Positions 22,788-40,130 of a DNA stretch of 64,000 nucleotides are shown here, piece by piece; position 1 is the first letter of the stretch; every line of letters starts with the position of its first letter. Source of the DNA: Myroides odoratimimus (GTDB lineage Bacteria > Bacteroidota > Bacteroidia > Flavobacteriales > Flavobacteriaceae); NCBI RefSeq assembly GCF_001485415.1, contig NZ_BCMQ01000007.1, positions 1 through 64,000 on the forward strand, read 5' to 3'. The translations under genes and the position numbers were made by a program. The notes under the pieces were generated by a model. That model had not been told where the DNA came from, ran no database searches, and saw only the letters and a list, made by a program, of their open reading frames with translations.

Positions 22788-22859
22788 GGTCCGTTCGTCT
22801 AGGGGTTAGGACGCCAGGTTTTCATCCTGGTAACAGGGGTTCGATTCCCCTACGGACTA
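22788..22859 (+). tRNA. tRNA-Glu (anticodon UUC), copy 1 of 6
   Basis: A 72-nt cloverleaf: acceptor GGTCCGT/ACGGACT, D-arm with AGGGGTTAGG, anticodon loop TTTTCAT with anticodon TTC, T-arm CAGGGGTTCGATTCCCCT. The CCA is not encoded. First of six identical copies. Confidence 0.97.
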
Positions 22860-22897
22860 CAGAGTTCTCTTTAAAGAGGATTTATCTAATGCAAATT

Positions 22898-22969
22898 GGT
22901 CCGTTCGTCTAGGGGTTAGGACGCCAGGTTTTCATCCTGGTAACAGGGGTTCGATTCCCCTACGGACTA
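22898..22969 (+). tRNA. tRNA-Glu (UUC), copy 2 of 6
   Basis: Identical to copy 1 over all 72 nt; 38-nt spacer from copy 1. Confidence 0.97.
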
Positions 22970-23007
22970 CAAAAGTTCTTTGACTAAAAAATATATAAAT
23001 AATTATT

Positions 23008-23079
23008 GGTCCGTTCGTCTAGGGGTTAGGACGCCAGGTTTTCATCCTGGTAACAGGGGTTCGATTCCCCTACGGACTA
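23008..23079 (+). tRNA. tRNA-Glu (UUC), copy 3 of 6
   Basis: Identical to copy 1; 38-nt spacer from copy 2. Confidence 0.97.
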
Positions 23080-23117
23080 CAGATTCTCTTTTTGAGAGTT
23101 TATAGATTATAATTATT

Positions 23118-23189
23118 GGTCCGTTCGTCTAGGGGTTAGGACGCCAGGTTTTCATCCTGGTAACAGGGGTTCGATTCCCCTACGGACTA
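23118..23189 (+). tRNA. tRNA-Glu (UUC), copy 4 of 6
   Basis: Identical to copy 1; 38-nt spacer from copy 3. Confidence 0.97.
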
Positions 23190-23226
23190 CAGATCTTCTT
23201 TTGGGGATTTATATATTACAATTATT

Positions 23227-23298
23227 GGTCCGTTCGTCTAGGGGTTAGGACGCCAGGTTTTCATCCTGGTAACAGGGGTTCGATTCCCCTACGGACTA
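23227..23298 (+). tRNA. tRNA-Glu (UUC), copy 5 of 6
   Basis: Identical to copy 1; 37-nt spacer from copy 4. Confidence 0.97.
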
Positions 23299-23338
23299 CA
23301 GATTCTCTTTTTGAGAATTTTATTTATTACAATTAATT

Positions 23339-23410
23339 GGTCCGTTCGTCTAGGGGTTAGGACGCCAGGTTTTCATCCTGGTAACAGGGGTTCGATTCCC
23401 CTACGGACTA
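23339..23410 (+). tRNA. tRNA-Glu (UUC), copy 6 of 6
   Basis: Identical to copy 1; 40-nt spacer from copy 5. The S20 gene starts 40 nt downstream without an obvious terminator or promoter between, so S20 may be read from the same transcript. Confidence 0.97.
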
Positions 23411-23450
23411 CAAGAGAAAAATAGTATAGACTTAATAAAATATTTAAGAA

Positions 23451-29468: not shown

Positions 29469-30503
29469 TTAAATTTCTTCTTTTTCTGTTGGGGGCATAT
29501 ACTGTTCATTCATTTTCATCACTCGCTTCATTATTCGTTTTTGTAATATCTTAGGAGCGATGACTTTCAGCGTTTCACCGAAGCCAAGTATTTCTCTCTC
29601 GAGTTCGAAGTTAAGAACCACATCTATGCGTATCTTCATACCTGTCTCATCTTCTTCTAATACTTGCTGAGAGTGGTGTAGGGGTTTGGTCTTTACGTAA
29701 GGCATATTATAGGCATTCACCCATAGTATTACCTTCTGAGCTCGATCTTGTTCTGTCTTAGTTACTCCAAGGGTATCATTATAATATCGGTCAAAGTCTA
29801 CTCCTTCATATTCTTTATAAGGTTCGTTTGCTAAGGCATATACATTGATGATACGGTCAAGTGCCAATGTCAGTAAATGTTTATGGCTACTACTGCGCAC
29901 GACTACAAACCACCTGTTGCGATACTCTTTTAATAAGTATGGATAGTAGATATTCTTAGTAGCTTCTTTAGACTTGAAAGATTTGTATTCTATTAGTAGG
30001 GTTTGTTTATTCTTAATGGCATCATATAAAGGACTGATAAATTTAATTCCCTTTAGCAAACTATTGCCCTCCATTTGTATATAGTTAGGCGCTTTCGTAC
30101 TACGGGTCAGTAAACTGTTATCCAACTTCGCAATGACTTCACTCATCTCATCTACTTGACTGAATCCGTTGAGGTGTTTCAGGATAGCGACTACTTCTTT
30201 TAGCTTTTCTGTATCTGCATCGTTGATAGGAGAGTTTTTGATGCTGTAGTTAGCATCCTCATAGGTATAATATTTTCTATCTACTACGATGATAGGAGCG
30301 TTATATCCAAGGCTATCACTACGCATTGCTTGTATGTCGAGCTGTATCGTACGCTTGCTGATACCAGTGTCTATACCTTCGTATTCGTATAGGGCATCAG
30401 CTACCTTCTCGATGAGGTCATTCAGTGTCCATTTTCTGAATCTGTTTCGTAGACATTCATCAATAATTCGGTAGCGCAATAGTGCTAATTTGTTCGTTGC
30501 CAT
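29469..30503 (-). CDS. WYL-domain transcriptional regulator
   Basis: A 344-aa regulator. I choose the ATG at 30503 (MATNKLALLRYRI); an upstream in-frame ATG at 30530 adds nine residues lying on the -7 box. Residues 1-80 form a winged HTH of the DeoR/YafY kind (FRKWTLNDLIEKVADAL, KRTIQLDIQAMR); the middle has the WYL ligand-binding fold (QTLLIEYKSF, YPYLLKEYRNRWFVV in place of strict W-Y-L); the C-terminus is the WCX region. WYL domains sense nucleic acids or nucleotides and often control defence and RNA-repair genes. It is divergent from the slipin-RtcB module and faces two matching dyads (30554-30572, 30654-30672). Confidence 0.88.
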   Translation of the reverse strand: MATNKLALLRYRIIDECLRNRFRKWTLNDLIEKVADALYEYEGIDTGISKRTIQLDIQAMRSDSLGYNAPIIVVDRKYYTYEDANYSIKNSPINDADTEKLKEVVAILKHLNGFSQVDEMSEVIAKLDNSLLTRSTKAPNYIQMEGNSLLKGIKFISPLYDAIKNKQTLLIEYKSFKSKEATKNIYYPYLLKEYRNRWFVVVRSSSHKHLLTLALDRIINVYALANEPYKEYEGVDFDRYYNDTLGVTKTEQDRAQKVILWVNAYNMPYVKTKPLHHSQQVLEEDETGMKIRIDVVLNFELEREILGFGETLKVIAPKILQKRIMKRVMKMNEQYMPPTEKEEI

Positions 30504-30527
30504 GCGTTTTATGTTATTTTTCTTAAT

Positions 30528-30535
30528 CAAATATA
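30528..30535 (-). promoter_or_regulatory. -7 box of the WYL regulator promoter
   Basis: TATATTTG on the minus strand is a perfect TAnnTTTG match, 25 bp upstream of the start codon. Confidence 0.6.
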
Positions 30536-30553
30536 CTTATTCTTCTCTTTATG

Positions 30554-30572
30554 TACGCAGTATAATTGCGTA
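30554..30572. promoter_or_regulatory. Dyad 1, candidate WYL operator
   Basis: TACGCA (30554-30559), a 7-bp spacer, TGCGTA (30567-30572): a perfect inverted repeat reaching the -33 region of the regulator's own promoter. Exactly 100 bp from dyad 2. Confidence 0.6.
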
Positions 30573-30653
30573 GTTGTTTTTTGTTTGAATTATTTATAAT
30601 TGTAATTAGCTGATATTTAGTGGTTAATAAAAAGTTTTACAAATATTTATTAG

Positions 30654-30672
30654 TGCGCAATTTGATTGCGTA
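30654..30672. promoter_or_regulatory. Dyad 2, candidate WYL operator
   Basis: TGCGCA (30654-30659), a 7-bp spacer, TGCGTA (30667-30672), the same layout as dyad 1. The -33 box TTTG (30661-30664) of the rightward promoter lies inside its spacer. Confidence 0.6.
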
Positions 30673-30690
30673 GGTAGGTATGCATCTTTG
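30661..30690 (+). promoter_or_regulatory. Promoter of the tRNA-like RNA / slipin transcript
   Basis: TTTG at 30661-30664, an 18-bp spacer and CATCTTTG at 30683-30690 (one mismatch to TAnnTTTG). Transcription would start near 30697, more than 500 nt before the slipin start codon, so the leader contains the tRNA-like RNA. Confidence 0.55.
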
Positions 30691-30696
30691 TACTGT

Positions 30697-31200
30697 TCGA
30701 AAGATACAAACCTTGGAAGCGTTTCAGTATAGCGCAGAAGTAAGGGGCAGTAGTTTACCTTATCCTGTTTGTAATCAGAAGAACAACTAATATGGGATTA
30801 GTAAAATGTTCATGTCGTAGGTTCGAATCCTACTATTACCTCAGGGTAATATAGATTAGCGGTTAGATCAGAACAATTGCCTTTTAAGCAATTTTGGAGA
30901 AGAAGAGGAACTTCATTAAAAATCCTCTCCATATAAAAAAGGTTCAGTTAAATAGTGTTTCTGTCTTTTCTTCATACAGTCTTAGACTAAGAGAATAAAA
31001 GACAACTTATCAAAGCCTGTAAAAACAAGCTATGCTGTAGAAGAGGGATAAGGGATGATATAGGGTGGATGACTTGCTCAGTGAGACATTCAGGACTATA
31101 CACAAGCTATTCTATTGTACAGTTTACTTCTTTTTCCGCCTGAGATAAGTGAAGGCTATTTAGACTGTTCTTTATGATAAAGACGTAAAATATTAAAAAT
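30697..31200 (+). ncRNA. Structured 500-nt leader or free-standing RNA
   Basis: No ORF is visible. Besides the tRNA-like domain (30807-30875) it holds several hairpins: TAAGG/CCTTA near 30740-30762, ACTAAT/ATTAGT at 30786-30802, ATTGC/GCAAT with a 7-nt loop at 30876-30892, a bulged hairpin ending in TCCTCTCC (about 30896-30930), and GTCTTTT/AAAAGAC at 30963-31003 enclosing AGTC/GACT. The direct repeat ACAAGCTAT occurs at 31025 and 31102. The 3' limit of the RNA cannot be read; it may be processed from the slipin mRNA. Confidence 0.5.
30807..30875 (+). ncRNA. Circularly permuted tRNA-like domain, open at the anticodon loop
   Basis: Read in order: anticodon-stem 3' strand TGTTC (30807-30811), 5-nt variable loop ATGTC, T-stem GTAGG, T-loop TTCGAAT, CCTAC (to 30833), acceptor 3' strand TATTACC (30834-30840), a TCAG loop, acceptor 5' strand GGTAATA (30845-30851), TA (positions 8-9), D-stem GATT, D-loop AGCGGTTA, GATC (to 30869), A26, anticodon-stem 5' strand GAACA (30871-30875). 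All stems pair fully (7, 5, 4 and 5 bp, one G-U) and invariant tRNA bases are present. The order is that of a permuted tRNA whose ends lie at the anticodon loop. Bacterial YrlA Y RNAs are known tRNA mimics and are the closest concept. Confidence 0.75.
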
Positions 31201-31208
31201 ATACAGCT

Positions 31209-32303
31209 ATGAAAAAGTTACAAGTAAAAACAAATCACGTTGCCTTAGTGTTTAAACAAGGAGAATTACAGAGAGTATATACTGCTGGTGAATACTGGTT
31301 ATGGGGTGAGAAAGAGGTGATGGAATACAATATGTCTGAGTACTTCGGTATGCGTAGAGATATAGAAGCTCTGTTATTAAATACAGAGTTAAGAGGAATG
31401 TTAGAGGTGATCGACGTGATGGATAATGAAGTGGTATTGGTGTATAAAAACAAAGTGTTTAATGTAGTATTAGGTGCTGGTAGACATATCTATTGGAAGG
31501 CTGCGACTGAGTACTCTTTTGAGCGGTATACTATAGATGGATTAGAAGTGGACAAGACTATCGCTCGTAATATCATGGGGAAAGGCAATATGTCAAACTT
31601 CGTGAGAATGTACACGGTAGGGGCTAATGAGAAAGGATTGTTATTCGTGGATGGGCAGTTCCAAGAGGTCTTGAATGCTGGTGAATACAGATATTGGAAA
31701 AACGATATCAAGGTACAAATCATCCTTGTCGATATACGTCAGCAAGTGATGGATATGAATGGGCAAGAGATATTGACGAAAGACAAAGTACAGTTGCGTA
31801 TCAACTTCAATTTGGTGTACCAAGTACAAGATTTGTTGAATGCCTATGTGGACAACAAGGAGGTGGAGAAACAGATGTATAATGTAGTGCAATTGATGTT
31901 AAGAGAGAAAGTCGGTAGAATGTCTTTTGATGAATTGATGGAGAGCAAAGAGAACTTGTCTTCTGAAATCTTGAATGGGGTGAAAGAAGAAATAGCATCT
32001 TTAGGTATCGAAGTAAAAAACTGTGGTATCAAAGATATCATCTTACCAGGGGATATCAGAGAGATCATGAATCAGGTGTTGATCGCCGAGAAAAAAGCTC
32101 AGGCAAATATGATCACGCGTAGAGAAGAGACAGCTGCTACACGTAGCTTGTTAAACACAGCGAAGTTGATGGAAGAGAACGAAATGCTAATGCGATTAAA
32201 AGAAATGGAATACATCGAAAAGATCGCTGATAAAGTAGGAGAAATCAGCTTGTCTGGTGGCGGTAATGTCTTGAAACAATTGAAAGAGGTGTTTTCAAGA
32301 TAG
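31209..32303 (+). CDS. Slipin-family SPFH/band-7 protein
   Basis: A 364-aa protein with the SPFH fold: two N-terminal repeats of a VALVFKQGE...AGEYWLWG / KGLLFVDGQ...AGEYRYWK type, then QEILTKDKVQLRINFNLVYQV and the slipin signature region with ISLGIEVKNCGIKDIILPGDIREIM, and a C-terminal coiled coil (EKKAQANMITRREETAATRSLLNTAK). No N-terminal membrane hairpin is evident, so it is probably cytoplasmic or peripherally bound. Slipins recur next to RtcB and RlaP in bacterial RNA-repair operons. It is the first protein gene after the structured leader. Confidence 0.88.
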   Translation: MKKLQVKTNHVALVFKQGELQRVYTAGEYWLWGEKEVMEYNMSEYFGMRRDIEALLLNTELRGMLEVIDVMDNEVVLVYKNKVFNVVLGAGRHIYWKAATEYSFERYTIDGLEVDKTIARNIMGKGNMSNFVRMYTVGANEKGLLFVDGQFQEVLNAGEYRYWKNDIKVQIILVDIRQQVMDMNGQEILTKDKVQLRINFNLVYQVQDLLNAYVDNKEVEKQMYNVVQLMLREKVGRMSFDELMESKENLSSEILNGVKEEIASLGIEVKNCGIKDIILPGDIREIMNQVLIAEKKAQANMITRREETAATRSLLNTAKLMEENEMLMRLKEMEYIEKIADKVGEISLSGGGNVLKQLKEVFSR

Positions 32304-32335: not shown

Positions 32336-32457
32336 GAGGTAGTAGTTTAATTAGGTAAAACGTGGAGTATAGTAATTATGCAATTACCAAAAGGTCAAGT
32401 GTGATTTACTCCACTGAGGGACTCCAAGATGCAGGTTCGATTCCTGTCTGTTTCACA
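32336..32457 (+). ncRNA. tRNA-like RNA with a 54-nt insert replacing the anticodon loop
   Basis: Normal tRNA order. Acceptor GAGGTAG (32336-32342) pairs with CTGTTTC (32448-32454; three G-U). TA at positions 8-9. D-stem GTTT/AAAC (32345-32348, 32358-32361) with D-loop AATTAGGTA. Anticodon stem TGGAG (32363-32367) with CTCCA (32422-32426). T-arm GCAGG-TTCGATT-CCTGT (32431-32447). Then A, CA. The anticodon loop is replaced by 32368-32421, which contains hairpin GTAATT/AATTAC and an AGGTCAAG motif shared with the two helices downstream. A competing pairing is GTGGAGT (32362-32368) with ACTCCAC (32408-32414). Probably cut out of the operon transcript by RNase P and RNase Z. Confidence 0.7.
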
Positions 32458-32462
32458 ATAAT

Positions 32463-32530
32463 AATCAAGGTCAAGTGGGTTTTACTTCTTTACACTTTTG
32501 GATAGCTAATAAGCCCACCCTTACCTGATT
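32463..32530 (+). ncRNA. Bulged helix B (Y-RNA-like stem)
   Basis: Stem, 5' to 3': AATC-(a)-AGGT-(c)-AAG-TGGGTTT at 32463-32482 pairs with AAGCCCA-(cc)-CTT-ACCT-GATT at 32511-32530, 18 bp with conserved bulges and a 28-nt loop. It has the same layout and bulges as helix C, with compensatory changes between them. Confidence 0.7.
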
Positions 32531-32586: not shown

Positions 32587-32651
32587 AATTGAGGTCAAGT
32601 AGGTTTTACTTCTAAACATTTCCCTTGTATCAAACCTGCCCTTACCTGATT
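32587..32651 (+). ncRNA. Bulged helix C (Y-RNA-like stem)
   Basis: AATT-(g)-AGGT-(c)-AAG-TAGGTTT at 32587-32606 pairs with AAACCTG-(cc)-CTT-ACCT-GATT at 32632-32651. Compared with helix B, the second pair of the inner stem changes G-C to A-T and others shift between Watson-Crick and G-U, so the helix is preserved. It ends 14 nt before the next gene and could also act on its translation. Confidence 0.7.
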
Positions 32652-32664
32652 AAATTTAATAATT

Positions 32665-34893
32665 ATGAAAACAAATGTATTAAGAGTAGCGATTAGAAAT
32701 CAAGCTATTTATGTTGCAGATACAGCTATAACTGTAACGTTTAATAAAGAAGTATTCTCTTTTGTAGAGAATGTGAGAAAGCTTGGATTTGGGTTGAGTG
32801 AAGAGTTGTTGAATGCGTTAAAATACGTTGATTCTGAAACATACCAAGTTATTTATAACACTTTGCAAGGTATATTAGGAACCAAGCACAATTGGACTCC
32901 GTTAGTGAAAGATTGGTTAATACCAACAGGAGAAACAGACTTAGACCATTATATTACTTATATGGCAAATTGGTTTGGTACTTCTAATGATGAGACGTTA
33001 AGTTGTGGACATAAGATTCCTAAAAAGACCTTTCCCTTAGAACGATATAACGGATGTCCATTCTGTGGGACGCCATTTGAGTTTGAACAATTAAAGTTGT
33101 ATGGTGGAGGTAGTAAAATGAAGGTATTGGACTTATGGCAAGATCAAGAGGCAACTACTTATTTAGAAGGTTTGATTAAGGCTAATACTGCTTTGGATGC
33201 GACGCAGATAGACTCGTTAAAAATGTTGTTGGCAGTATATCCTTTGCCTGCGGCAGAGGTGAAGATGAAGGAGACATTGATGTTGTTAATCGACTGTTAT
33301 GTAGAGGCAGGTGAGATAGCTAAGGCGGGAGCGTTGTTAAAAAGCCCAACAGATATCATGAGATACTTGTGGTATAAGAAAACAGGTTTCTTACAATTGA
33401 TACTGCCAAAGACTATTATCGCTCGTCAAGCGAAGAATCACGCTCATTTTAAGATGAGGTTAGATTCGAGTAATAGAGCGAAAGAAGATGTGAAAGAAAA
33501 CTTGAAGTTAAAGTATTCGAGAAAAGAAGCATTAATGGTGGCTACTTGGTTAAACGAGATGGCGATGGATATCGAGTTGATGTGTGAGAATATGCACCCT
33601 AAACGCGGTATGTGGATCCGTTTCATCAGAGCCTTGCGTTTAGCTGAATACAGCAAGAGAACGGGGTTTGAACAATTAACAGAGTTATTAGATGTATTCT
33701 ATAATCAAATCTATACTGTGACAGCAGGTAGAATAGAACACTACAGATTAAAGATGGATGCAGACCGCGCTTTTGCATTGCTAAAGTCGCGTCCTGGGTT
33801 ATTCGCTCGTTCATTGTTTTCAAGTATGTTGTGTTTTGGTGACGACGTTACTTTAGAACACTTTGCTAAGGTGGTAGATAAAGTACCAATGAGGTTGTTA
33901 TTGACGTTGAATATGTATGCAGATACGTATTTTGACCCAACTGCCAGTAGAGTAATGAAGCCATTAGGTGGAGTGAATAAAGTGATAGCTGTGAATCAAT
34001 GGGTAAAAGCGTATGATGAGGCTACATTAAAAGCAATGGTGGGTAAGATAGAGTCTTTTGTGTTGACAGAAGTGATGCGTCGATTTGCAATGCAAAAGAA
34101 TGAGAATAAAACAATCTATATCAGCGAGGATTTGTATAACATTCCTTTAGCAATAGGGGATAGAGCAGATAATGTTCAAGACTTGCCTGTAGCGTTAATG
34201 GGGACTAAGTTTCCATTAGAAGGACATGAGGTAAGATTGTTTATGCAGTGGGGGGCAGGTTTGCCTGCTCAACATTTAGATATGGATTTGAGCTGTCATA
34301 TCGCTTATACAGATAAGGTAGAAGTGTGTAGTTATTACAGCTTGTCGCCATTAGGATGTCAGCATAGTGGAGATATCAGAAGTATTCCTAATCAGATAGG
34401 TACTGCCGAGTATATAAACATAGATGTGCAAGCATTGAGAAGAGCAAAGACGAAGTATGTAACTTTTACAAGCAATGCTTATAGTAATGGAGCTATAACG
34501 CCAAACTTGGTAGTAGGGTGGATGGATGCTAAGTATCCGATGACTGTATCAAACAATAAGGGCGTAGCGTACGATCCGTCAGCTGTAATTCACCAAGTAC
34601 GTGTGACAAATAGCTTGACAAAAGGATTGGTATTTGGGGTGTTGGATGTTGAGAAAGGAGAGATTATATGGTTAGAGATGGCATTCGGTGGACAAAATAT
34701 ACAGTCATTGGATAGCAAAACATTAAACATATTCTTAAAGAAGTTAGAAGCCAAAACGAAAGTAGCAGATTTGTTAATGATTAAGGCTCAAGCACAAGGA
34801 ATGAACATTGTGTATTCAGTAGAAGCAGCAGATGAGGTGTACGATGCTAAATGGGCTATTGATTCGGCTAATGTGATGAGGTTAATTAGTTGA
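32665..34893 (+). CDS. RING-like zinc finger protein with helical repeats and TerD-like C-terminus
   Basis: A 742-aa cytoplasmic protein. Residues 114-134 have C-G-H ... C-P-F-C (LSCGHKIPKKTFPLERYNG then CPFC), a half-RING or treble-clef knuckle. A long alpha-helical middle (about 180-500) looks like HEAT or TROVE-type repeats but has no decisive signature. The C-terminal part (about 530-700), with LDMDLSCHIAYTD, CQHSGDIRS and INIDVQALRRAKTKYVTF, resembles the TerD beta-sandwich. It recalls the MXAN_6230/SCO0854 RING-domain proteins; this is from memory and moderate in confidence. Placed between tRNA-like RNAs and RNA-repair enzymes, it may be the RNA-binding or scaffold component, in the position a TROVE/Rsr protein has in other systems. 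Confidence 0.6.
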   Translation: MKTNVLRVAIRNQAIYVADTAITVTFNKEVFSFVENVRKLGFGLSEELLNALKYVDSETYQVIYNTLQGILGTKHNWTPLVKDWLIPTGETDLDHYITYMANWFGTSNDETLSCGHKIPKKTFPLERYNGCPFCGTPFEFEQLKLYGGGSKMKVLDLWQDQEATTYLEGLIKANTALDATQIDSLKMLLAVYPLPAAEVKMKETLMLLIDCYVEAGEIAKAGALLKSPTDIMRYLWYKKTGFLQLILPKTIIARQAKNHAHFKMRLDSSNRAKEDVKENLKLKYSRKEALMVATWLNEMAMDIELMCENMHPKRGMWIRFIRALRLAEYSKRTGFEQLTELLDVFYNQIYTVTAGRIEHYRLKMDADRAFALLKSRPGLFARSLFSSMLCFGDDVTLEHFAKVVDKVPMRLLLTLNMYADTYFDPTASRVMKPLGGVNKVIAVNQWVKAYDEATLKAMVGKIESFVLTEVMRRFAMQKNENKTIYISEDLYNIPLAIGDRADNVQDLPVALMGTKFPLEGHEVRLFMQWGAGLPAQHLDMDLSCHIAYTDKVEVCSYYSLSPLGCQHSGDIRSIPNQIGTAEYINIDVQALRRAKTKYVTFTSNAYSNGAITPNLVVGWMDAKYPMTVSNNKGVAYDPSAVIHQVRVTNSLTKGLVFGVLDVEKGEIIWLEMAFGGQNIQSLDSKTLNIFLKKLEAKTKVADLLMIKAQAQGMNIVYSVEAADEVYDAKWAIDSANVMRLIS

Positions 34894-35090: not shown

Positions 35091-35843
35091 ATGAAAGAGA
35101 TAATATTAAAAAAGATAAAAGAAATAGAAGAGTCACATAACATAGAAGTATTGTATGCGTGTGAGTCAGGAAGTAGAGCTTGGGGTTTTGCTTCTGAGGA
35201 CAGTGATTACGATGTTCGATTGGTTTATAAGCAGAAGATAGATAATTATTTGAGTGTGGTAGATACAAGTGATTTTATAGATATGCCGATAGATGAGGTA
35301 TGGGACTTTAATGCTTGGGATATCAAGAAGGTATTGGTATTGCTAATTAAGTCTAATACAACAGTGTTTGAGTGGTTACAATCGCCTATTGTTTATAAAG
35401 AGGCAGAAGGGTTTAGAGTAGCAATGTGGGCATTGAGCCATGACTATTATTGCCAACAGACACATACACATCATTATCTGGGCTTAGCAAAGAAGATGTT
35501 GTTGGAGCATACGGATGAGCAGGTGAAGTACAAGACACTGTTCTATATCCTTAGAGCACTATTGTCTGCTAAGTGGAATGTAGAGTTTAATAGGATAGCA
35601 CCTATGGAGTTTAAGCCCTTGCTAAAGGTGGTTAATGATGATAAGCTTACTGCATACATACTCTTATTGATAAAAGAGAAAGAAGGCTTGACTGAGAAGG
35701 ACTGGTACACTTGGGATGCGAGGTTAAAGGACTATGTGTATGACTTGTATGAGAGTTTGTCTAAGGTTACAGTGGTAAAGAGCAAGGGAAGTTTTGACAA
35801 TGAATTGGTAAATAGGTTTTTTAGAAAGGAGGTAAGACAATGA
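35091..35843 (+). CDS. RlaP-type nucleotidyltransferase 1
   Basis: A 250-aa member of the polymerase-beta-like superfamily (COG3541/RlaP). The catalytic motif is intact: ESGSRAWGF (GSRAWG at residues 27-32) followed by the metal-binding DSDYD (37-41). The C-terminal helical part is typical of the family. RlaP genes recur beside RtcB and slipins and are thought to add or modify nucleotides at RNA ends during repair; no substrate has been proven that I know of. The stop codon overlaps the start of the second copy (ATGA), so both are translated together and may form a heterodimer. Confidence 0.88.
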   Translation: MKEIILKKIKEIEESHNIEVLYACESGSRAWGFASEDSDYDVRLVYKQKIDNYLSVVDTSDFIDMPIDEVWDFNAWDIKKVLVLLIKSNTTVFEWLQSPIVYKEAEGFRVAMWALSHDYYCQQTHTHHYLGLAKKMLLEHTDEQVKYKTLFYILRALLSAKWNVEFNRIAPMEFKPLLKVVNDDKLTAYILLLIKEKEGLTEKDWYTWDARLKDYVYDLYESLSKVTVVKSKGSFDNELVNRFFRKEVRQ

Positions 35844-36898
35844 CAATAACAGAGATGAAAGACAGAGGATTGCTCCTGTTCGAATGTATAAGTGGGAGTA
35901 GGGCATATGGCTTAGCAACTAAAGATTCGGATACGGATATAAGAGGAGTGTATTACTTGCCTAAAGAACAGTTTTACGGTATGGATTACCTTCCACAGAT
36001 CAGCAATGAGACTAATGATATCGTGTATTATGAGATAGGGCGTTTTATAGAGTTGTTGAGTAAGAATAACCCTAATATACTGGAACTGTTAGCTACACCT
36101 GATGAGATGGTGCTGTATAAGCATCCCGTAATGGATAAGATAGTGATGAGAGATTATCTGTCTAAGTTGTCTAAAGATACTTTTGCTGGATATGCAATGA
36201 GTCAAGTGAAGAAAGCTAAGGGATTAAATAAGAAAGTGTTTAACCCAATGGGTCAGGAGCGAAAAGAGTTGCTCGACTTCTGTTATGTCTTAGAGGGGGT
36301 GCAAACTATGTCGTTAAGAGATTGGCTCAACAAGAAAGAGATAGCACAAGGGCAATGTGGATTGGTCAAGCTGTCTTCTCAAAAAGAGCTTTATGCACTA
36401 TTTTGTGATAAGGTAGGAGATAAGGGGTATAAAGGGATAGTGCGTTATGACAATTCGAATGAAGTAAGTCTGAGCAGTGTGGCTAAAGGTGAAGAGCTAA
36501 CAGCTTATTTGCTGTGCAAGGCAGATGATTACTCTACACATTGCAAGAAGTACAAAGAGTATTGGGATTGGGTAGAAAAGCGTAACGAGGCAAGGTATGT
36601 GACAACAATGAGCCATGCTGGTGGATACGACAGTAAGAATATGATGCATACGGTCAGGCTGATGCTCACTGTGCGAGACATCTTTATGACGGGTATAGTT
36701 ATAGTACGCAGTCCGTATAGAGAAGAATTGCTCAAGATAAAGTCCGGACATTATAGCTATGAAGAATTGTTAGATAAGGTAACAGAGTTACAAGAAGAAG
36801 TAGAACGACTGTATGTAGATTCGCCTTTGCCTAATCGACCTGACCTTGATAGGGCAGAAAAGGTATTGGTAGAGATAAGAGAGGAGTTGTATGGGTGA
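35840..36898 (+). CDS. RlaP-type nucleotidyltransferase 2
   Basis: A 352-aa paralogue with the same motif: ISGSRAYGL (GSRAYG at 19-24) and DSDTD (29-33), then GVYYLP. The longer C-terminal part (about 220-350) ends in a helical hairpin (LDKVTELQEEVERLYVDSPLP) with a basic and acidic pattern. Overlap of 4 bp with the first copy. Two different RlaP proteins in tandem suggests that one acts on 5' and the other on 3' ends or on different RNAs, which is inference. Confidence 0.88.
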   Translation: MTITEMKDRGLLLFECISGSRAYGLATKDSDTDIRGVYYLPKEQFYGMDYLPQISNETNDIVYYEIGRFIELLSKNNPNILELLATPDEMVLYKHPVMDKIVMRDYLSKLSKDTFAGYAMSQVKKAKGLNKKVFNPMGQERKELLDFCYVLEGVQTMSLRDWLNKKEIAQGQCGLVKLSSQKELYALFCDKVGDKGYKGIVRYDNSNEVSLSSVAKGEELTAYLLCKADDYSTHCKKYKEYWDWVEKRNEARYVTTMSHAGGYDSKNMMHTVRLMLTVRDIFMTGIVIVRSPYREELLKIKSGHYSYEELLDKVTELQEEVERLYVDSPLPNRPDLDRAEKVLVEIREELYG

Positions 36899-38699: not shown

Positions 38700-40130
38700 A
38701 TGAAAGATAATACACCGATTAATGGAAATGATTTAATTGTTTTAGGATACCCACAAACAGAGTTATTGGGTATTGCTCTAAAAGCGAATAAGAAAAGAAC
38801 AGGTTATACGAAGGTGGAGATGTTAGCACATTATAAAGCAGTGCTTACTAATGCAGAAGATTACTTAAACGATAAGGTATTTGGGAAGTTGGCTACCGCT
38901 ATTATAGAAGGCGTGGGACAACGTGTAGAAGAAGAGGTTATTCCACTGAGAGAGGAGGCTGTAGGGTATACAGTATACGGTGCTGATCATATAGAAGACG
39001 GAGCGATTAAGCAGATGCAAACTGCGGTAAAGCTACCTGTGGCTGTAGCAGGTGCGTTAATGCCTGATGCACATCAAGGATATGGATTACCTATCGGAGG
39101 AGTATTAGCTACTGAGAATGCTGTGATACCTTATGGTGTAGGAGTAGATATTGGGTGTAGAATGGCGTTGTCTATTTTTGATATTAAAGGTGTGGAGTTC
39201 TACGGTATGGAAGACTTATTGAAAGAACAGTTGGTTAAGCATACTAAGTTTGGAGCAGGGCATGGATTCCAAGGACAATATAAAGCACAACATGATGTCT
39301 TAGATAGAGGAGAGTTTAATCTAAACCCATTTATTAAGAACTTACAAGATAAAGCTTGGGAACAACTGGGGTCTTCAGGTGGAGGTAATCACTTTGTAGA
39401 ATGGGGATTGATGGAGTTCATGGAGAGAGATGAGGTATTGAATATAGATAAAGGGACTTACTTAGCTTTACTAACACATTCAGGATCTCGTGGAATGGGA
39501 GCGACTATAGCAGGTAGATATACGCAAATCGCTAAAGATATCTGTAAGTTACCTTATGAAGCAAAAAACTTGGCTTACCTTGATCTAAACTCAGAAGCAG
39601 GACAAGAGTATTGGGCGATGATGAACTTGGCAGGGGATTATGCTTCAGCTTGTCATGAGGTCATTCATGATAAACTAACTAAAGCAATAGGTGCTGAGGT
39701 ATTAGCCAAAGTGGAGAATCACCATAATTTTGCGTGGAAGGAGATGTACCAAGGTAGAGAGGTTATTGTACATCGTAAAGGAGCTACTCCTGCGAGTAAA
39801 GGAGTGATGGGGATTATACCAGGCTCTATGACTGCGCCAGGATTCTTAGTGAGAGGTAAAGGAGAAGAGGAAGCTTTAAACTCTGCTTCACATGGAGCAG
39901 GACGTCAGATGAGCAGAACACAAGCTATCAAGACTCTGAAAGCAGCTGATATAAAAGCAGTATTGTCAGATCATGGTGTAGAGTTAATAGGAGCAGGTAA
40001 AGATGAAGCTCCTATGGCTTATAAAGATATTCATCAGGTGATGGCTGCACAGGGAGAGTTAGTCGATGTAGTAGCGATGTTTACGCCTAAGATTGTCCGA
40101 ATGGCTGATGATGGGAGTAAAGAGGATTAA
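38700..40130 (+). CDS. rtcB: RNA-splicing/repair ligase RtcB
   Basis: A 476-aa GTP- and manganese-dependent ligase that joins 2',3'-cyclic-phosphate or 3'-phosphate ends to 5'-OH ends. All key sites are visible: DAHQG (Asp123, His125), GVDIGC (Cys153), GGGNHFVEWG (His231), LTHSGSRG (His260), NHHNF (341-342) and HRKGATPAS with the start of the GMP-linking region at His358. An N-terminal segment of about 90 residues precedes the core. In archaea and animals it joins tRNA exons; in bacteria it repairs broken tRNA and rRNA. It ends the module and is followed by a terminator. Confidence 0.95.
   Translation: MKDNTPINGNDLIVLGYPQTELLGIALKANKKRTGYTKVEMLAHYKAVLTNAEDYLNDKVFGKLATAIIEGVGQRVEEEVIPLREEAVGYTVYGADHIEDGAIKQMQTAVKLPVAVAGALMPDAHQGYGLPIGGVLATENAVIPYGVGVDIGCRMALSIFDIKGVEFYGMEDLLKEQLVKHTKFGAGHGFQGQYKAQHDVLDRGEFNLNPFIKNLQDKAWEQLGSSGGGNHFVEWGLMEFMERDEVLNIDKGTYLALLTHSGSRGMGATIAGRYTQIAKDICKLPYEAKNLAYLDLNSEAGQEYWAMMNLAGDYASACHEVIHDKLTKAIGAEVLAKVENHHNFAWKEMYQGREVIVHRKGATPASKGVMGIIPGSMTAPGFLVRGKGEEEALNSASHGAGRQMSRTQAIKTLKAADIKAVLSDHGVELIGAGKDEAPMAYKDIHQVMAAQGELVDVVAMFTPKIVRMADDGSKED

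Follow-up and report, generated by a model that had tools for sequence, protein, structure and literature searches.

The locus

The window, i.e. the whole stretch of 64,000 nucleotides of Myroides odoratimimus that was analysed, contains an RNA-repair island. A gene for a WYL-domain regulator is transcribed divergently from an array of small RNA elements, and the array is followed by a gene for an SPFH/Band 7 (slipin-like) protein, which is the constant downstream partner of the RNA. Further downstream lie a second tRNA-like RNA, a gene for a protein of 742 amino acids similar to MXAN_6230 and SCO0854 (here P742), two genes for RlaP-type RNA-repair nucleotidyltransferases, and the gene for the RNA ligase RtcB. 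Coordinates are collected in Table 1.

Table 1. Positions of the elements of the array and of the island genes in the window
Feature	Position	Strand	Remarks
Divergent WYL-domain regulator	29469..30530	-	
Operator-like palindrome TACGCA-N8-TGCGTA	30554..30573	+	candidate site of the WYL regulator
Second operator-like palindrome TGCGCA-N8-TGCGTA	30654..30673	+	
Conserved 5' mini-hairpin GCG-TTTCAGTATAG-CGC	30719..30735	+	stem in relatives GTG/CAC, GGG/CCC, GAG/CTC
Permuted tRNA-like unit	30807..30875	+	sequence, descriptor scan, minimum-energy fold; homologous units covary
Outer (anticodon-type) stem of the unit	30807-30811/30871-30875	+	
T arm of the unit	30817-30833	+	
Closed acceptor hairpin of the unit	30834-30851	+	
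U8-A9 linker of the unit	30852-30853	+	
D arm of the unit	30854-30869	+	
Anticodon-type arm ATTGC-CTTTTAA-GCAAT	30876..30892	+	loop of tRNA-Lys UUU
3' hairpin GAGGA-ACTTCATTAAAAA-TCCTC	30905..30927	+	recognised by eye; relatives e.g. GCATC-ACTCTTAAAAA-GATGC
SPFH/Band 7 (slipin-like) protein	31209..32303	+	constant downstream partner of the RNA
Second tRNA-like RNA, ordinary order	32336..32456	+	a long stem with AATTACC-AAA-AGGTCAA takes the place of the anticodon arm; related system, not a permuted unit
P742 (742 amino acids, MXAN_6230/SCO0854-like)	32665..34893	+	weak RING match, helical region, TerD-like C-terminal domain
RlaP RNA-repair nucleotidyltransferase 1	35091..35843	+	
RlaP-type nucleotidyltransferase 2	35840..36898	+	
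RtcB RNA ligase	38700..40130	+	

Fold of the unit in the window

The unit begins with TGTTC-atgtc-[GTAGG.TTCGAAT.CCTAC]-<TATTACC.TCAG.GGTAATA>-ta-, i.e. one strand of the outer stem, the T arm, the acceptor and the linker, and ends with (GATT.AGCGGTTA.GATC)-a-GAACA, which provides the D arm and the other outer strand. The earlier note had described it as a circularly permuted tRNA-like RNA, opened at the anticodon loop. A descriptor scan and the minimum-energy fold both return this topology, all the pairings that the note had listed (acceptor 7/7, T 5/5, D 4/4 with one G-U, outer stem 5/5) are present in the sequence, and the canonical tRNA details were borne out.

The minimum-energy fold of the 69 nucleotides is exactly the permuted cloverleaf (-16.8 kcal/mol). 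The z-score of this energy is only -1.68, with 10 of 200 shuffles folding as well, and folding energy alone is therefore weak evidence; it was rejected as proof of the unit in favour of a comparison among relatives. Scored with a descriptor of the permuted cloverleaf, the window unit reaches 23.0, and in 2.56 Mb of first-order Markov shuffles of the window (both strands) the descriptor found nothing at 22 or above and a single match at 20 or above. The permuted cloverleaf at 30807-30875 is not a product of chance, and the observation is confirmed. In computed folds the D stem is weak (pair probability 0.16-0.32); the outer stem forms with a probability of 0.70-0.98 in a context of 161 nt and is paired otherwise in contexts of 221 and 301 nt, where its probability is 0.01-0.02. 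A long Y-type helix, AAGGGGCA/TGCCTTTT, was also predicted in the window and was not adopted because, judged by eye, it is apparently not kept in close relatives.

Units upstream of SPFH genes in related bacteria

SPFH orthologues were gathered by protein similarity and, separately, through an RNA model (R1). This gave 83 distinct orthologues including that of the window, from genomes of the genus, family, order and class of the window's organism, and 82 of them have at least 450 nt of upstream DNA. All 82 carry a permuted unit (score of at least 15) within 1.5 kb upstream. When only orthologues found by searches other than the RNA model are counted, the window's own included, a unit occurs upstream in 54 of 54, and this comparative result is the decisive support for the unit predicted in the window. 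Outside these upstream regions the loci of the 83 orthologues comprise 554,593 bases, counting both strands, and yielded four hits at 15 or above, one of them at 20 or above.

The 54 loci hold 93 units: one unit in 19 loci, two in 31 and three in 4, so that several units are present in 35 loci. The last unit always lies on the same strand as the SPFH gene, 244-866 nt before it (median 382; 54/54 loci). Acceptor loops are short, 3-8 nt under a descriptor that accepts only 3-9 nt; they measure 3 nt in 26 units, 4 nt in 42 and 5 nt in 14, i.e. 3-5 nt in 82 of the 93.

Model R1 found some match at E 0.01 in 279 of 299 genomes. Among the matches listed, many of the lower-scoring ones span 90-120 nt and fit ordinary tandem tRNA genes, and for this reason only 30 loci were used; a match in genome G069, although in the score range of this best set, was left out of it. 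In all 30, which include the window and its relative G020, an SPFH gene follows downstream on the same strand. A further model, R2, was trained solely on SPFH-linked units and run over 395 genomes. Its best 30 loci comprise 18 with an SPFH match (window included), one with a divergent Band_7 protein (L271) and one that is part of an SPFH locus already counted (L286). RtcB is encoded in L280, L283 and L285, a TROVE/Ro60 protein in L261, L262 and L266, only Y-stem motifs were seen in L282, and L265, L277 and L281 are plain tRNA arrays. Since units also occur beside Ro60 or RtcB genes with no SPFH gene in view, the module is not exclusive to SPFH.

Some individual loci were inspected by eye. L114, whose SPFH protein is 91% identical to that of the window, apparently carries, 5' of unit 1, a further permuted unit which is missing from the window, and arrays may therefore gain or lose modules quickly. 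One unit, of Leu type, seems to be opened in the long variable arm (L080) and another in the D loop (L084).

Covariation

An earlier alignment (A2) was made of units chosen for their pairing, and a further one, A4, was therefore built for an unbiased test. It contains the first unit of each locus, picked using only SPFH homology and the T arm, and was aligned with MAFFT, blind to structure; 53 of the 54 loci entered it, L179 being left out for having no unit within range. Under the permuted cloverleaf 89.8% of the paired cells of A4 are complementary, against 64.0% after shuffling and 39-47% when partners are slid. Double-change cells number 310 against 101 in the shuffled alignment, and the covariation score is 0.717 against 0.230 (shuffled) and 0.10-0.18 (slid).

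Changes on both sides of a pair occur at 19 of the 21 pairs, i.e. at 4/4 in the D stem and 3/5 in the T stem, where the other two pairs are invariant, and throughout the acceptor and the outer stem. Compensatory changes in these last two stems had been set beforehand by the earlier note as a point on which its proposal could fail, and they were found at 7/7 and 5/5 pairs. RNAalifold, run unguided on A4, found the T, closed acceptor and D helices; the outer stem was not among the helices that it found. In fixed columns at least four of the five outer pairs are formed in 40 of the 53 units and fewer in 13.

Positions that make tertiary contacts in tRNA are also conserved among the 53 units: U8 in 53, A14 in 52 and the GG of the D loop in 53. 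The Levitt pair 15-48 covaries, being G-C in 35 units, A-U in 16, A-C in one and U-U in one (Fisher p 1.6e-12 over the 52 rows in which position 15 is G or A, not corrected for kinship). That the element is structurally a tRNA body with its opening at the anticodon stem and a closed acceptor end is close to certain; its RNA fold is a prediction that draws on strong covariation.

Ordinary tRNA clusters lie near some of the loci, and three of the 30 loci returned for R2 are plain tRNA arrays. An array might thus be the relic of an ordinary cluster of tandem tRNA genes in decay, its closed acceptor hairpins being accidental. When 35 pairs of adjacent units were compared, 98% of positions paired in the permuted register (partly by selection) and 47% in the ordinary tRNA register, against 45% for unrelated pairs of units. 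Pairing in the permuted and not in the ordinary register argues strongly against decayed clusters, as do the double compensatory changes and the retention of units in 54/54 loci, and such an origin is exceedingly improbable.

Comparison with permuted tRNA genes

Permuted tRNA genes of algae and archaea share with the window unit a 3' half placed before the 5' half, the opening at the anticodon loop and the pairing of all cloverleaf stems; as they are described in part of one report, the topology corresponds to that of known genes with the junction at 37/38 (PMC3978253). With RtcB encoded in the same island, the unit could be imagined as such a gene: RtcB or another ligase would join the ends at the anticodon, and RNases P and Z would open the acceptor, giving a working or a circular tRNA. 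The acceptor loops leave little room for a leader, a trailer or a CCA end, however, and the loop of 4 nt in the window is too short for the end-processing sites of the algal and archaeal genes. The unit also stops at the anticodon stem, with anticodon-type loops located in separate hairpins beyond it, and PF01974, the family of tRNA-splicing endonucleases, is without a match in the genome. The ordinary tRNA model (RF00005) reaches 19.8 bits at 30746-30841, below the 29 needed. A functional permuted tRNA gene is thus very improbable, and the suggestion of the earlier note that RtcB might join the ends into a circular tRNA-like RNA is not supported, given the short loop, the missing endonuclease match and the end of the unit at the anticodon stem.

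Comparison with YrlA and Ro60 RNAs

YrlA has been described, in the accessible part of a structural report, as a circular permutation of tRNA on the basis of its crystal structure (PMC11472068). A cmscan of 30300-31400 matched the Rfam YrlA family (RF02553) at 30809-30875 with 28.4 bits (E 9.4e-4 for 1.1 kb), under the Rfam gathering score of 69, and the structure line of the Rfam model has its helices in the order seen in the window unit. The pointer of the earlier note to YrlA therefore holds for the topology, which is the same in the Rfam model and in the printed structure. The loci of 20 relatives that were scanned gave no YrlA match at the gathering score.

The likeness to YrlA comprises a T arm, closed acceptor hairpin, D arm and outer stem in the same permuted order, a fold superposable on tRNA, and location in an RtcB RNA-repair locus, as in the rsr-yrlBA-rtcBA operon of Salmonella. 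No TROVE/Ro60 gene (PF05731) was found in the whole genome of the window, in a search that gave a match in one control genome, and the Ro60-type stem motif GGTGCCGT-N-TACTTC is in none of 83 SPFH upstream regions, one of which is only 70 nt long. On these two results the alternative that the anticodon stem continues into a Ro60-type Y stem, also raised in the earlier note, is not supported. SPFH-linked units moreover stand in tandem in 35/54 loci, are followed by anticodon-type arms and have SPFH in the place of Ro60. Because the Ro60 gene (in the window genome), the stem motif and a sufficient Rfam score are missing, the SPFH-linked form was not filed as a member of YrlA, and the element is best read as a relative of YrlA, or a look-alike, that is independent of Ro60 and coupled to SPFH.

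Model R2 also detects units beside Ro60 genes in genomes of the same bacterial class, a TROVE gene lying upstream of them in L261, L262 and L266; in L280 a Ro60-type vWA match is weak (24.6 bits, under the cut-off of 27.7). The units near Ro60 genes sit among repeated GGTGCCGTA-N-TTACTTC stems. Y RNA-type arrays, in which GGTGCCGTA-N-TACTTC stems recur alongside permuted units and single T arms, were seen in other genomes of the class (L261, L262, L266, L280, L282 and L285).

The accessible part of another report treats the YrlA module, the modification of YrlA by DusA and TruB, and the PNPase link (PMC8394870). For the tRNA-like domain, competitive inhibition of an anticodon nuclease is given as one possibility in the accessible text of Hughes et al. 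(PMC7790460), according to which YrlA fragments were not detected in Salmonella while an anticodon nuclease was active. Such mimics thus need not be cut.

Anticodon-type arms and other conserved elements

Arms were searched for as a perfect 5-bp stem with a loop of seven bases, 0-6 nt past a D arm. By this rule 41 arms occur in 36 of the 54 SPFH loci, and none was found in the other 18. The pattern Y32-U33-R37 of anticodon loops is present in 34 of the 41 arm loops, against 167 of 1091 control hairpins from the same upstream regions, and absent from 7. The exact loop of a tRNA of the sampled loci is found in 17 arms, against 63 of the 1091 controls, and the other 24 arm loops match no such tRNA loop exactly.

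The loops, mostly of anticodon type, are swapped while the stems stay fixed. Relative G020 is 91% identical to the window over 221 bases and has the same stem, ATTGC/GCAAT, around the loop CTGTCAC, which is that of tRNA-Asp GUC, as in the tRNA-Asp GUC of the window genome itself. The stem CTACA/TGTAG bears ten different loops, eight of them with U33. The arm has a predicted pair probability of 0.02-0.08 in the window, against 0.37-0.42 in G020.

A mini-hairpin GTG-TTTCTGTATAG-CAC, with variable stem letters, lies 5' of the units in many loci; the motif search did not find it in part of the SPFH loci. Upstream of the array, the palindrome TACGCA-N-TGCGTA (two letters variable) is present in 33/54 SPFH loci, with 38 matches in 80 kb of SPFH upstream DNA against 11 in 170 kb elsewhere. 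A consistent terminator between array and SPFH gene was not found (12/54 loci, against 4 in shuffles).

A second RNA family linked to P742

The tRNA-like RNA at 32336-32456 has a GGTCAA hairpin in the place of the anticodon arm, which is the permuted form with its loop at the other end; permuted GGTCAA hairpins, one or two, occur in 63 of 74 P742 loci. The core of this second family is GGTCAA-N5-9-TACT, partly with a pairing 3' strand and ATTACC. Its sites in the window are at 32393, 32469-32525 and 32593-32646, and it is also seen in loci L002-L075.

P742 is linked to these motifs. There are 341 GGTCAA motifs on the same strand in 70 of the 74 P742 loci, all of them at most 1.5 kb upstream of P742, against none elsewhere in 895,517 same-strand bases of these loci and one on the reverse strands. 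Four loci have no motif; three of these have less than 400 nt of upstream DNA, and L069 has the full upstream region. The motif resembles the Ro60-side stem GGTGCCGTA-N-TTACTTC, and may therefore mark a Y-like RNA whose protein has no similarity to TROVE. P742 was considered as a Ro60 homologue and rejected, as a profile comparison with three TROVE proteins showed no similarity (0.2% probability) and the helical part of P742 gave no fold match above the usual noise. No sequence match to P742 was found in the PDB, and its clear fold match is that of the TerD-like C-terminal domain.

The palindrome TACGCA-N-TGCGTA also occurs in 64 of 68 P742 loci. Being common to SPFH and P742 loci, it suggests that a single regulator, perhaps the WYL protein, may control both RNAs.

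RNA-repair genes in the neighbourhood

The link to RtcB made in the earlier note extends to relatives. In a set of 20 neighbourhoods, each of up to 12 kb, RtcB is encoded in 12 and a WYL protein in 10. In two others without RtcB in the stretch (L201 and L208) RNA_lig_T4_1 is followed by a PNKP-type kinase-phosphatase, which brings the neighbourhoods with a repair ligase to 14 of 20. In the remaining six neither RtcB nor a T4-type ligase was found, the domain scans having covered ten neighbour proteins in all. RtcB and enzymes of the T4 ligase plus PNKP type reseal cut tRNAs, and the T4 ligase-kinase pair mends tRNA-Lys cut at the anticodon.

Other proteins of these neighbourhoods are an RF-1-domain protein (L193), a calcineurin-like phosphoesterase (L196) and an RNase T-type exonuclease (L209). 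At L191:9661-10671 another SPFH/Band 7 gene lies downstream of the RlaP-type genes of the same island. The rtc locus of Pseudomonas aeruginosa likewise has an SPFH gene (protein PaFlo8) inside an RtcB/RtcA locus; compared by description only, it differs in that the accessible part of the report mentions no tRNA-mimic RNA (PMC13086221).

Possible function

RNAs made of such modules upstream of SPFH genes may act as bait for anticodon nucleases or for proteins that mend tRNAs, a reading to which a probability of roughly 0.5 is given; the function as bait or sensor, taken alone, falls somewhat short of even odds. The acceptor is sealed by a short loop, so that charging should not be possible, and the RNA would be recognised as a tRNA while being unusable as one. 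Unit 1 ends where the anticodon loop would be and would thus imitate a tRNA nicked at the anticodon, and later units would present an intact anticodon arm. A nuclease or repair protein bound in this way would spare real tRNAs, or report damage to the SPFH operon.

Any reading has to account for a tRNA body kept with its tertiary contacts, a sealed acceptor, first units that are open at the anticodon stem, anticodon-type loops that differ between species on constant stems, a constant place before SPFH, and repair enzymes in 14/20 neighbourhoods. Most of this would follow if the RNA were a bait or sensor whose targets are proteins acting on the anticodon loop. Against it stands the computed folding, in which the arm of the window is energetically disfavoured (0.02-0.08) and the outer stem loses to other pairings in longer contexts. 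So do the 18/54 loci in which no arm was found, the arm loops that lack the anticodon pattern (7/41) or match no sampled tRNA loop exactly (24/41), the 13/53 units with fewer than four outer pairs in fixed columns, the 8/20 neighbourhoods without RtcB, and the units beside Ro60 or RtcB genes with no SPFH gene in view.

The same-strand placement 244-866 nt upstream of SPFH suits a bait acting in trans no better than it suits a regulatory leader. In E. coli the thrS leader is a case of tRNA mimicry in an mRNA leader, and it serves as the model here. The array would be the 5' leader of the SPFH mRNA, mimicking a broken and an intact tRNA, and a tRNA-binding or repair protein of the island would repress expression until titrated by damaged tRNAs. 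The constant orientation in 54/54 loci, the lack of a consistent terminator between array and gene and the operator-like palindrome upstream in 33/54 loci are in keeping with such autoregulation. The distance to SPFH is long and variable, however, and the anticodon-type loops differ among relatives, unlike a fixed operator for one protein; autoregulation is possible and rather unlikely. The thrS leader also imitates parts of a tRNA upstream of a gene, whereas the array has a whole permuted tRNA body, a sealed acceptor and a repair island, with control only proposed.

Alternatively, the RNA could be the noncoding component of an SPFH ribonucleoprotein, by analogy with Y RNA and Ro60, its modules recruiting a tRNA-binding enzyme as YrlA recruits PNPase. 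One protein is associated with one linked RNA in each of three cases (SPFH with permuted units, P742 with GGTCAA motifs, Ro60 with Y-stem units), and the conserved 5' domain outside the units could be a protein site. No motif besides the units emerged as common to all SPFH leaders, however, the mini-hairpin being unseen in part of them, and SPFH proteins are not known as RNA binders. A ribonucleoprotein of this kind is unlikely. The autoregulatory leader and the SPFH ribonucleoprotein both compete seriously with the bait or sensor reading, and either could be combined with it.

A wider proposal, tentative and with the odds against it, is that these arrays are a new class of bacterial RNA, evolvable displays in which sealed permuted tRNA bodies would show a 'broken' tRNA together with intact anticodon arms. 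Constant stems would receive new loops whenever the local anticodon nucleases change, and the array would be bound, physically or genetically, to an SPFH protein that forms rings and to a set of RNA-ligase enzymes. It would then be a decoy system for the defence of translation across a bacterial class, parallel to and independent of the Ro60-Y RNA system.

No paper on such arrays was found in the open-licence literature, where YrlA, already in print as a circularly permuted tRNA in the accessible part of its structural report (PMC11472068), is the sole bacterial noncoding permuted tRNA mimic that was met. The array system, with its permuted module and anticodon-type arms, is widespread. The same module with another protein partner and no Ro60-type stem suggests that the feature retained with RNA repair is the tRNA mimicry and not the Ro60 stem. 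As anticodon loops differ among species, the question of decoy or sensor is directly testable.

Ordinary tRNA gene clusters adjoin islands or Ro60 loci in L032, L072, L080, L262, L266 and L269, and perhaps form a reserve that replaces tRNAs lost to nucleases. In the window, tRNA-Glu (TTC) genes stand six in tandem at 22788-23411, spaced by about 110 bases. Matches to the Rfam Flavo-1 RNA were seen at L158:1382-1453 and L040:2691-2781, with 54.0 and 63.4 bits, respectively.
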